The notes beneath the pieces are model-generated. The model did not search any database. It was not told the DNA's origin and saw nothing but the letters and a program-made list of their open reading frames with translations. From Spirochaetales bacterium (GTDB taxonomy: Bacteria; Spirochaetota; Spirochaetia; Sphaerochaetales; Sphaerochaetaceae), in assembly GCA_028719825.1 (NCBI GenBank), contig JAQYLW010000034.1:1-36230 (forward strand): a stretch of 36,230 bases of DNA, in the 5' to 3' direction. Position numbers and translations under genes: made by a program. Below, piece after piece: positions 30,163-33,475 of the stretch. How positions within the stretch are numbered: position 1 is the first letter of the stretch; each line of letters begins with the position of its first letter.

Positions 30163-30843
30163 TTAGTAAAAAACGTAGTTTTTGTAATTAATATATTGAT
30201 TTAACAAGGATTTAAGGTATTTTGAAGGGATCGGGGATAAGGGTAAGGAGCATGAAGGGGGAGTTCTGAATTCCTGCATTCTCCAAAGCAATACGTGGCG
30301 CATATAATCTGCTAAACTAAGAATATCATCATCGCTATGCAATTCACGAACAAGTGTTGTTCTGAATTCATAATCTACCTTGCTGTTTTTAATCAATTCA
30401 ATTGATGAGCGGATTCTTTCAACATCTATGTTTGCCACACCCGAACAGAGAGCATAGGATGCAAATGAGCTTTTAACATCCATTGCTATATAGTTTACAA
30501 GATTTTTTTCTATTACATCCTCTAATAAGCTTGTATTGTATCCGTTTGTATCAAGTTTTACCTTAAATCCCATATCCCTTATACGGGCTATAAAATCAAC
30601 AAGACCTTTTTGAAGTGTAGGCTCACCGCCTGAGATACAAACGCCCTCAATCAGCTTCTTCCTTGTTTTTAAAAATGAAATAACATCCCCCTCTGAAATA
30701 CGCCCCGATTCGGGAGATGAGGTTATAATTCCCGCATTATGGCAATAAGGGCATCTAAAATTGCATGATGGAGAAAAAAGCGTACAGGCAATATGATTCG
30801 GATAGTCGAGCAATGTAAACTTTTGTATTCCTTCAAACGTCAT
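30163..30843 (-). CDS. nrdG: Anaerobic ribonucleotide reductase activating radical-SAM protein
   Basis: SPSCNFRCPYCHNAGII, GVCISGGEPTLQKGL, KLDTNGYNTSLLE; adjacent to nrdD. Confidence 0.93.
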   Translation of the reverse strand: MTFEGIQKFTLLDYPNHIACTLFSPSCNFRCPYCHNAGIITSSPESGRISEGDVISFLKTRKKLIEGVCISGGEPTLQKGLVDFIARIRDMGFKVKLDTNGYNTSLLEDVIEKNLVNYIAMDVKSSFASYALCSGVANIDVERIRSSIELIKNSKVDYEFRTTLVRELHSDDDILSLADYMRHVLLWRMQEFRTPPSCSLPLSPIPSKYLKSLLNQYINYKNYVFY

Positions 30844-31397
30844 TATTCCTCTATCATTGCCATGTATTTTCTGTTTTCAATATTTTCAAATACACCAAGC
30901 ACTTTATAATAGTTCAGAAGTTCTGCTTTTATATTGTTGCAAATATGATCGAAAATATCCTTAGGGGCAATTATTTCTGTTTCAATAAAATATCCCAGAT
31001 CCCTTATCCCCTTGTTTCGGCTATGTCCTTTAACATTTACAATTTCTATGTTCATATCATAGCCGTAGATGTCTTTTGTTGACCAGATATATCCTTCCTT
31101 GGTTTTTTTAATAAACAACAGCTCGTCTTTAAAAAGCGCATCATATTCGCTTTGGCTTAAAATCCTTTCATATTCGCTGTTTACCTCAACCCCGTCTGAA
31201 AGACTGTTATTCTTCTTTGTATAAATATACTCGTTGTTTTGCTTCCTAAGCCGGTATAGCTCTCCGCTTGGTTCTTTAAAGTAAGCATCGCATTTATACT
31301 CGCTTTTTGCAGCATTATATAAATTGTTAAAATACCCTGTTAAACTGTTTTTTTGATCTGCCCTCAGACGGGCCTTTACCTCTATTTCCGTATGCAT
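30843..31397 (-). CDS. CYTH domain protein (CyaB/ThTPase superfamily)
   Basis: N-terminal EIEVKARL (ExExK signature), YRLRKQNNEYIYTKKN, DLGYFIETEI. Confidence 0.88.
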   Translation of the reverse strand: MHTEIEVKARLRADQKNSLTGYFNNLYNAAKSEYKCDAYFKEPSGELYRLRKQNNEYIYTKKNNSLSDGVEVNSEYERILSQSEYDALFKDELLFIKKTKEGYIWSTKDIYGYDMNIEIVNVKGHSRNKGIRDLGYFIETEIIAPKDIFDHICNNIKAELLNYYKVLGVFENIENRKYMAMIEE

Positions 31398-31471
31398 AAT
31401 ATGTTGAATATCACCTTTTATTTATGATAGATTATAAAAAAGTTGCCGTATTAAGTGCAACACCGTTTTAC

Positions 31472-31543
31472 GAGTCCGTAGCTCAGTGGGAGAGCATTAC
31501 CTTCACACGGTAGGGGTCGTTGGTTCAAACCCAATCGGGCTCA
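31472..31543 (+). tRNA. tRNA-Val (anticodon CAC), no encoded CCA
   Basis: GAGTCCGTAGCTCAGTGGGAGAGCATTACCTTCACACGGTAGGGGTCGTTGGTTCAAACCCAATCGGGCTCA; complete cloverleaf. Confidence 0.95.
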
Positions 31544-32290
31544 ATGAATATTTTTTTATTGCTTGCTTTTTTATTCTATATTGGCTCAACCCTTGGGTGG
31601 ATTGCAGAATTGTTGTTCAGACGTTTCAAACTCAGCAACAAAGACCACTGTTGGGTAAATCCGGGTTTTCTCATAGGTCCTTATTTACCTCTTTACGGTT
31701 TTGGTTTGGACATATTGTTTTTATGCTCACTATTAAAAAAACATATTCCGCCACTCCCACTCGGAGTAGAAATACTTGTCGTATTTATCTTTCTATCGGT
31801 TTTAATGACTTTGTTAGAACTTATTGCCGGTGAAATATTTATAGTCGGGTTTAAAGTAAAATTATGGGATTACACCACCAGAAAATGGAACTACAAGGGC
31901 ATAATATGCCCGCTTTTTAGCGTTATATGGGGTGTTGTAGGCTTAATTTATACTTATTTTATACACGCATATATAACAAAAGCCATAATGTGGTTTTCAA
32001 ATAACCTGGCATTTTCATTTGTTGTGGGACTGTTCTTCGGTGTTTTTATTGTTGATGTATGTTATTCGTTAAAACTCACTACAAAGATACGCAAATTTGC
32101 AAAAGAGAGCAGAATAGTTATTCTGTATGAAGATTTCAAGCAATCTGTACGTATTAAAGAAATGCAAGCAAGAGGCAGGAGAGCACGATTTCTTCTTTCC
32201 ATTGTACCAAGCATCAAAAGTTTAAAAGATTATGTAGAAGAATGGAAAAACGAATATTGTGACAAAGTGAGAACGATAAAGAAAAAATAA
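31544..32290 (+). CDS. Putative ABC-transporter type IV / CmpB-like multi-pass membrane protein
   Basis: MNIFLLLAFLFYIGSTLGWIAELLFRRF..WVNPGFLIGPYLPLYGFG...LWDYTTRKWNYKGIICPLFSVIWGVVG. ATG at 31544 directly follows the tRNA. Confidence 0.88.
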   Translation: MNIFLLLAFLFYIGSTLGWIAELLFRRFKLSNKDHCWVNPGFLIGPYLPLYGFGLDILFLCSLLKKHIPPLPLGVEILVVFIFLSVLMTLLELIAGEIFIVGFKVKLWDYTTRKWNYKGIICPLFSVIWGVVGLIYTYFIHAYITKAIMWFSNNLAFSFVVGLFFGVFIVDVCYSLKLTTKIRKFAKESRIVILYEDFKQSVRIKEMQARGRRARFLLSIVPSIKSLKDYVEEWKNEYCDKVRTIKKK

Positions 32291-32296
32291 ATGTAA

Positions 32297-33475
32297 TTAC
32301 TCAAGAAGCGATTCAAGAATACTTACATATCCCTTCTTTACTTTCAAAAGCGAATCGATCTCTATGTATTCGTCCCTTATATGTGCTAAAAACTCTTCTG
32401 ATGGTCCATAGCCTATCCCCTTAATGCCAAGAGTACCGCAGTAATGGGCTCCGTTTGTACAAAATGAAAAATGGGATATATTATGCGGAAGATGAGCTTT
32501 TTTAAGCCCTTCTATGCTTTTTTTGATCATCTCATCATTTTGGTCATAGCACCATGCCGGGAAAAACCTATCGGATGTAATTCGGTAGCCTGTCCAACAG
32601 TCTGCTTCCCCTTTTATGATATAGCTTTTTGCTTTAAAATTTTTATTCCTTTGTTGAACTCTTTTAAGCGCATCGTTGACCTCGGACAAAACGCTTTCTT
32701 TGCTTTCTCCCGTTAAGGTTCGCCTGTCGAATGTTGCTCTGCAAACGGATGGAAGAACTGAAGATCCGGGATATGGATATGAGATTATATCCGTTAATTC
32801 CAATATTCCCTTTCCGAGAACAGGGTGTTTATTCGCTTTGATCTTTTGTATTTCCCCTATTGCTTCGTTCATCAGATATACGGCATTTACACCTTTTTCA
32901 GGATTTGATGAATGACAGCTGACACCTTCAGTTTCCACACATATTTCTGCCCTTCCTCTGCCGCCTATTTTAACGCTGCCGCTTGTTGCCTCTCCTATGA
33001 TAACAAAATCAGGCATAATCCTGTTTGTAATTCCTTTACAGGCTATCCCTTCAAAACATTCCTCGTGTACAATACCGGCTATGGCAACTCTTCCCTTAAA
33101 ACATCCACCCGTTTTCTTTTTAAACTCTGCAGCTGCTATGATAGAAGCACACACGCTTGATTTCATATCGGATGATCCGCGAGCATAAATACGTCCGTCC
33201 ACCTCTTTTGCACTAAAGGGAGGAAACGTCCACTTGTCCTTATCAATTGCATCAACTGTATCCATATGACCGTCTATCAATACAGTTTTACCCCTCTCCG
33301 AACCGTTTATGATTCCAAGCACGTTTCCGTATTCGTCAATGCTCACCTCATCAAATCCAAGCTCTTCCATGGCTTTTTTAAAAAAGAGGGCAACTCTTTT
33401 TTCCTTTCCGGAGAAGCTTGGTATTCTCAATGCCTTTTTAGTAAAACGTATAAGATCCTTATCGTCTTTTATCAT
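32297..33475 (-). CDS. YgeY-family selenium-metabolism-linked peptidase/hydrolase (M20-like)
   Basis: DGHMDTVDAIDKDKWTFPPFSAKEVDGRIYARGSSDMKSSVCA, VHEECFEG, GEATSGSVKIGGRGRAEI, FDRRTLTGES. Confidence 0.88.
   Translation of the reverse strand: MIKDDKDLIRFTKKALRIPSFSGKEKRVALFFKKAMEELGFDEVSIDEYGNVLGIINGSERGKTVLIDGHMDTVDAIDKDKWTFPPFSAKEVDGRIYARGSSDMKSSVCASIIAAAEFKKKTGGCFKGRVAIAGIVHEECFEGIACKGITNRIMPDFVIIGEATSGSVKIGGRGRAEICVETEGVSCHSSNPEKGVNAVYLMNEAIGEIQKIKANKHPVLGKGILELTDIISYPYPGSSVLPSVCRATFDRRTLTGESKESVLSEVNDALKRVQQRNKNFKAKSYIIKGEADCWTGYRITSDRFFPAWCYDQNDEMIKKSIEGLKKAHLPHNISHFSFCTNGAHYCGTLGIKGIGYGPSEEFLAHIRDEYIEIDSLLKVKKGYVSILESLLE

Follow-up and report, generated by a model that had tools for sequence, protein, structure and literature searches.

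The window analysed here is a stretch of 36,230 nt, contig 34 of one metagenome-assembled genome (1.15 Mb, 94% complete, 92 contigs, 0.22% estimated contamination) of a small-genome gut spirochaete. It carries a 72-nt tRNA-Val(CAC) gene on the plus strand at positions 31472–31543, on which ARAGORN and the Rfam tRNA model (62.2 bits) agree. Base 31543 is the discriminator A, and it is followed not by CCA but by the ATG (31544–31546) of a cmpB-like gene encoding 248 amino acids (31544–32290, plus strand; stop codon TAA at 32288–32290). The gap between the tRNA and the coding sequence is zero, leaving space for neither a terminator nor a separate promoter. With its canonical fold and a discriminator that lacks an encoded CCA, the tRNA is of the CCA-less precursor type; none of the 30 tRNAs of this genome that were checked has a CCA directly 3’ of it. 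The original prediction had placed the tRNA end and the start codon at these same bases and had stated that CCA is not encoded; the first point holds by sequence, ARAGORN and Rfam alike, and the second by the ATG that follows the discriminator.

Downstream, the tRNA-cmpB unit is closed by a convergent M20 peptidase gene (32297–33475, minus strand; ORF listing and profile match). Upstream lies a divergent CYTH-domain gene (30843–31397, minus strand), whose profile score of 23.0 bits is marginal against a cut-off of 23.2. The 74-nt intergenic region between them (31398–31471) would have to hold the tRNA promoter and probably that of the CYTH operon as well. Hexamer scoring gave weak candidates on the plus strand (e.g., TATAAA at 31433) and, on the minus strand, TATAAT at 31436–31431 as a candidate promoter for the CYTH operon; the promoter-match listing held no promoter-like plus-strand match in this region.

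Start codon and Shine-Dalgarno signal of the cmpB-like gene

The CmpB-like protein belongs to Pfam family PF06541 (ABC_trans_CmpB), which it matches over residues 9–175 at 124.6 bits (curated cut-off 25.9; E = 4.7e-36). The Pfam name, putative ABC-transporter type IV, makes no statement about CmpB function. Across an alignment of six homologues (the window protein and five others), Met1 never varies and the first hydrophobic segment begins at a common position; by homology, ATG 31544 is therefore secure as the start codon, and the earlier view that the N-terminus fits the family start was right. The reading frame of 248 aa is unbroken, and every conserved position of the alignment is retained.

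At –18 to –4 of this gene the anti-Shine-Dalgarno (anti-SD) duplex energy is only –2.5 kcal/mol. The median for 55 cmpB homologues is –7.4 kcal/mol, and 84% of them have –5 or better; these values assume the usual anti-SD sequence, and the assembly has no 16S rRNA match. The annotated start thus has no usable SD on this measure, and the original prediction holds in that a good SD is lacking. The cmpB gene of the congener G001 also has a weak value (–3.5 kcal/mol), and its ATG overlaps the stop codon of the upstream gene (TAATG), an overlap that could mediate translational coupling; cmpB in the window has no adjacent upstream coding sequence on its own strand. Across 60 sampled genes of the window genome the SD signal rises only mildly over background, so the absence of an SD is in itself weak evidence. 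The first 35 nt of the mRNA predicted below are A/U-rich and weakly folded.

Gene order around tRNA-Val(CAC) in relatives

Two genomes of the same genus, G001 and G002, were compared with the window. Their tRNA-Val(CAC) genes are 99% and 89% identical to that of the window, respectively; at position 4 of the acceptor stem (31475) a T in the window gives a U-G wobble pair, and the C found there in G001 gives a C-G pair. Some 50 nt beyond the G001 tRNA come CYTH and nrdG-like genes in the same orientation; in the window the CYTH-nrdG genes sit upstream of the tRNA and are directed away from it. The tRNA thus adjoins these genes in both genomes with the relative orientation reversed (G001 locus, L157), which suggests a local inversion at the tRNA. 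In G002 the tRNA is followed by an apparent ymdB-like gene, identified by eye from the sequence, and no match to cmpB was found in that genome. Identity in the three-way alignment ends at the tRNA boundaries, and the same tRNA has three unrelated downstream contexts within one genus.

The original prediction had named conservation of the junction in relatives as a check, and here it fared badly: the junction is in neither congener, and a tRNA directly upstream of CmpB occurs at 0 of 80 further loci from other genomes. The arrangement does not have the distribution of a conserved tRNA-mRNA regulatory unit. Since the congeners have other genes after the tRNA, identity stops at the tRNA ends and the 80 loci lack the arrangement, the junction is most simply read as a lineage-specific rearrangement with its breakpoint at the tRNA end.

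The closest relative of the window CmpB is that of G001, at 56% identity; the G001 contig is CAMDZB010000007 (uncultured Spirochaetaceae), in which a CmpB segment is 58% identical. Substitutions between the two genes are concentrated at codon position 3 (96, 47 and 166 at positions 1, 2 and 3, respectively), a pattern that points to selection since the split from G001 and provides no date for the rearrangement. Beyond the genus, gut Clostridia (Ruminococcus, 49–53%) supply most of the nearest CmpB proteins and Treponema (48–50%) some; within the family, most of the other genomes have copies that are far more distant than these. Acquisition of the window cmpB by gene transfer is possible.

In five Treponemataceae genomes from two genera (L010, L013, L015, L017, L209), a tRNA-Val(TAC) lies ~70–80 nt upstream of a distant CmpB paralogue. 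We rejected this synteny as support for the zero-gap junction: the tRNA is a different one, the CmpB is more distant, and several of the spacers that were read contain a hairpin and a T-run.

Distances between tRNAs and downstream genes

Figures given for the window genome as a whole come from its tRNA loci and a set of 60 genes. Among the 41 tRNAs read in the window genome, only tRNA-Val(CAC) abuts a gene. A same-strand frame starts within about 45 nt of the tRNA in roughly ten cases, including genes for a YggS-like protein (14 nt), a U32 peptidase (19 nt), SecE (27 nt) and an SNF transporter (35 nt), and transcripts headed by a tRNA seem to be frequent in a genome this compact. All of these other genes are set off from their tRNA by a spacer, several with an SD. 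The junction is the zero end of the genome’s distribution of tRNA-gene distances and, because close same-strand frames are this frequent, a single zero-gap junction in a single genome is no great surprise. The YggS-like gene (Ala_racemase_N; L037:1587-2282) follows tRNA-Val(TAC), and the spacer has a T-run but lacks a clear SD; a very short leader after RNase Z cleavage is possible for this gene.

We scanned 139 genomes of the family for a T-arm pattern with an ATG at the correct distance. The pattern fits 26 of 30 tRNAs of the window genome; the survey covers ATG starts, with GTG and TTG starts outside its range, and the sites inspected were tRNA-like sites and automatically saved loci. The 102 distinct sites inspected included 19 ARAGORN-confirmed tRNAs with an ATG directly after them. 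Seventeen of these ATGs open frames of only 1–71 codons (the 71-codon frame apparently runs through a further tRNA), one opens a frame that lies antisense to a longer frame, and one alone of the 19, that of the window’s cmpB, opens a convincing gene. An ATG directly after a tRNA is by itself unremarkable. The antisense case, a tRNA-Cys followed by a 284-aa frame in another genome (G153), was rejected as a second zero-gap junction: the opposing frame is 450 aa long, and the tRNA is followed by a hairpin with a T-run.

Predicted processing of the tRNA-cmpB transcript

With zero gap, neither a terminator nor a separate promoter fits between tRNA and gene, which makes co-transcription nearly inevitable; a single RNA almost certainly spans the two. 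The genome encodes a single complete RNase Z (334 bits; curated cut-off 293), with the HxHxDH motif present as HMHADH, and two homologues of PolyA_pol-type (CCA-adding-type) nucleotidyltransferases, and hence both kinds of enzyme that would act on a CCA-less tRNA precursor. The two PolyA_pol-type genes (L213 on contig C64 and L214 on contig C21) stand in a genome of 1.15 Mb, and either product may add CCA.

RNase Z cuts CCA-less precursors right after the discriminator, and cytidines just downstream suppress cutting (PMC7479834). From this specificity, the tRNA coordinates and the missing CCA, a cut at 31543/31544 (plus strand) is likely, and the 3’ product would start with pAUG, given that the trailer released by RNase Z bears a 5’ phosphate (PMC9181182). 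The position of the cut may vary: on one CCA-less substrate in vitro, Bacillus subtilis RNase Z cut 50% at the discriminator and 50% 5–6 nt downstream (PMC7479834), and a cut of the latter kind at this junction would remove the cmpB start codon. No RNase J was found over the family cut-off in the assembly (best score 23 bits against 400), so the predicted 5’-phosphorylated AUG mRNA would probably escape this enzyme. The RNase list of Borrelia burgdorferi likewise includes RNase Z and lacks RNase J (PMC10319736).

We therefore favor the following course of events, to which, taken as a whole, we give about an even chance. A rearrangement with its breakpoint at the 3’ end of tRNA-Val(CAC) would have put cmpB directly behind the tRNA in this lineage, and a promoter ahead of the tRNA would drive a single transcript of both. 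The tRNA would be cut out by RNase P and RNase Z and finished by a CCA-adding enzyme, and the cut after A31543 would leave a cmpB mRNA with a pAUG 5’ end that is translated as a leaderless mRNA. Leaderless translation of cmpB is plausible, and we judge it about an even bet that the cut RNA is what ribosomes mainly translate. That RNase Z maturation of the preceding tRNA is the sole source of the pAUG end, tying CmpB output to tRNA-Val(CAC) processing, falls somewhat short of an even chance. In Leptospira, also a spirochaete, leaderless transcripts are common, with about 440 having a 5’ UTR <10 nt (PMC5243855). Several points weigh against the favored course: RNase Z may also cut a few nt into cmpB (PMC7479834), the genus is not known to use leaderless mRNAs, the junction is found in a single metagenome-assembled genome, and the upstream promoter match is weak.

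The proposal that RNase Z would create a leaderless AUG at this site thus survives in part. The coordinates, the absence of CCA, the weak SD, the start codon and the presence of the enzymes all speak for it; its further suggestion, a link between tRNA maturation and expression, does not fare well as an evolved one, the junction being unconserved. Because near relatives lack the junction, a chance rearrangement is a better account than an evolved switch. An evolved regulatory link between tRNA maturation and cmpB is improbable, and the present evidence reveals no such circuit; the arrangement would be a one-gene case of mitochondrial-like punctuation that arose as a by-product of gene order.

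Alternative explanations

The fusion could be real and cmpB poorly expressed or silent, with most of the RNase Z trailer degraded and the rearrangement recent and neutral or slightly harmful. The lack of the junction in both congeners would suit such a history, as would an SD lost relative to most homologues and the absence of a cmpB match from G002, by which the gene seems dispensable in the genus. We nevertheless regard this as unlikely, given a 248-aa frame that has kept every conserved position and an assembly in which RNase J was not found.

Translation mainly from the uncut precursor has a lower probability still. It could begin at the ATG without an SD or at an in-frame UUG at 31520, within the T arm, which would add 8 residues to the protein. 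The open frame of cmpB does extend into the tRNA, and an SD-like GGGG lies just upstream of the UUG (duplex energy –6.2 kcal/mol); however, only 3 nt separate this run from the UUG and it forms part of the tRNA fold, homologues begin at the ATG position, and tRNA processing strips the upstream part.

Fragmented metagenome assemblies are often misjoined at tRNA genes, and the junction might be an artefact in which two loci were joined at the tRNA of a genome that is in 92 contigs, the breakpoint coinciding with the tRNA end. We consider this quite improbable: tRNA-Val(CAC) is single-copy in the assembly (the other match is one different tRNA, at 82%), the best relative of cmpB is from a congener (56%), the breakpoint lies in the interior of a contig of 36 kb whose genome has little estimated contamination, and the tRNA adjoins the CYTH-nrdG genes in both species. 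Least probable of all is a promoter inside the tRNA gene that gives a primary leaderless transcript from 31544 or near it, for although leaderless mRNAs usually come from transcription starts at the start codon (170–184 such genes in Leptospira; PMC5243855), the tRNA is 99% conserved in G001, where a different gene follows, and the bases 7–12 upstream of the ATG are unlike a –10 box.

Comparison with known systems

Co-transcription followed by RNase Z cleavage and leaderless translation, the reading we prefer, has counterparts of several kinds. Co-transcripts of tRNA and mRNA are known in bacteria, e.g., E. coli secG-leuU and tufB. These and the other tRNA-headed genes of the window genome are alike in placing a tRNA and a coding sequence in one transcript, whereas in the window genome the latter keep a spacer, several with an SD, and tRNA-Val(CAC) and cmpB have none between them.

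In animal mitochondria, the tRNA punctuation that Ojala et al. are said to have described in 1981 has RNase P and RNase Z release mRNAs without 5’ UTRs. The junction resembles this system in that the tRNA abuts the coding sequence without a leader, CCA is unencoded and RNase Z would make the mRNA 5’ end (PMC9181182, PMC5203842). In contrast to a genome-wide scheme in which many genes are separated by abutting tRNAs, the window genome has one such junction (1 of 41 tRNAs), its ribosomes are bacterial, other genes have an SD, and the arrangement is known here from sequence.

A downstream RNA whose 5’ end is proposed to come from RNase Z has been described in Nanoarchaeum equitans, in the tRNA-Val(TAC)-sRNA8 precursor (PMC3491384). 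There too the RNA lies immediately downstream of a tRNA-Val, but that system is archaeal and the RNA is a C/D box sRNA, where here it would be a bacterial mRNA. Bacterial leaderless mRNAs, such as those of Leptospira (PMC5243855), Propionibacterium (PMC3848588) and Streptomyces (PMC4681348), are alike in that the ribosome would start on a 5’-terminal AUG without an SD. They differ in origin: theirs come from transcription starts and have a 5’ triphosphate, while the cmpB mRNA would be a processing product with a monophosphate.

The literature searched, which was non-exhaustive and included few subscription papers, yielded no report from bacteria of a leaderless mRNA made through tRNA processing. 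If the preferred reading is true, the locus would be a clean bacterial example of a leaderless mRNA created by tRNA processing and would allow a bacterial test of whether RNase Z trailers with a 5’-terminal AUG get translated. It would also bear on the origin of mitochondrial punctuation from ordinary compact gene order. The junction illustrates that a rearrangement can yield a zero-distance fusion of tRNA and gene with the gene left intact.
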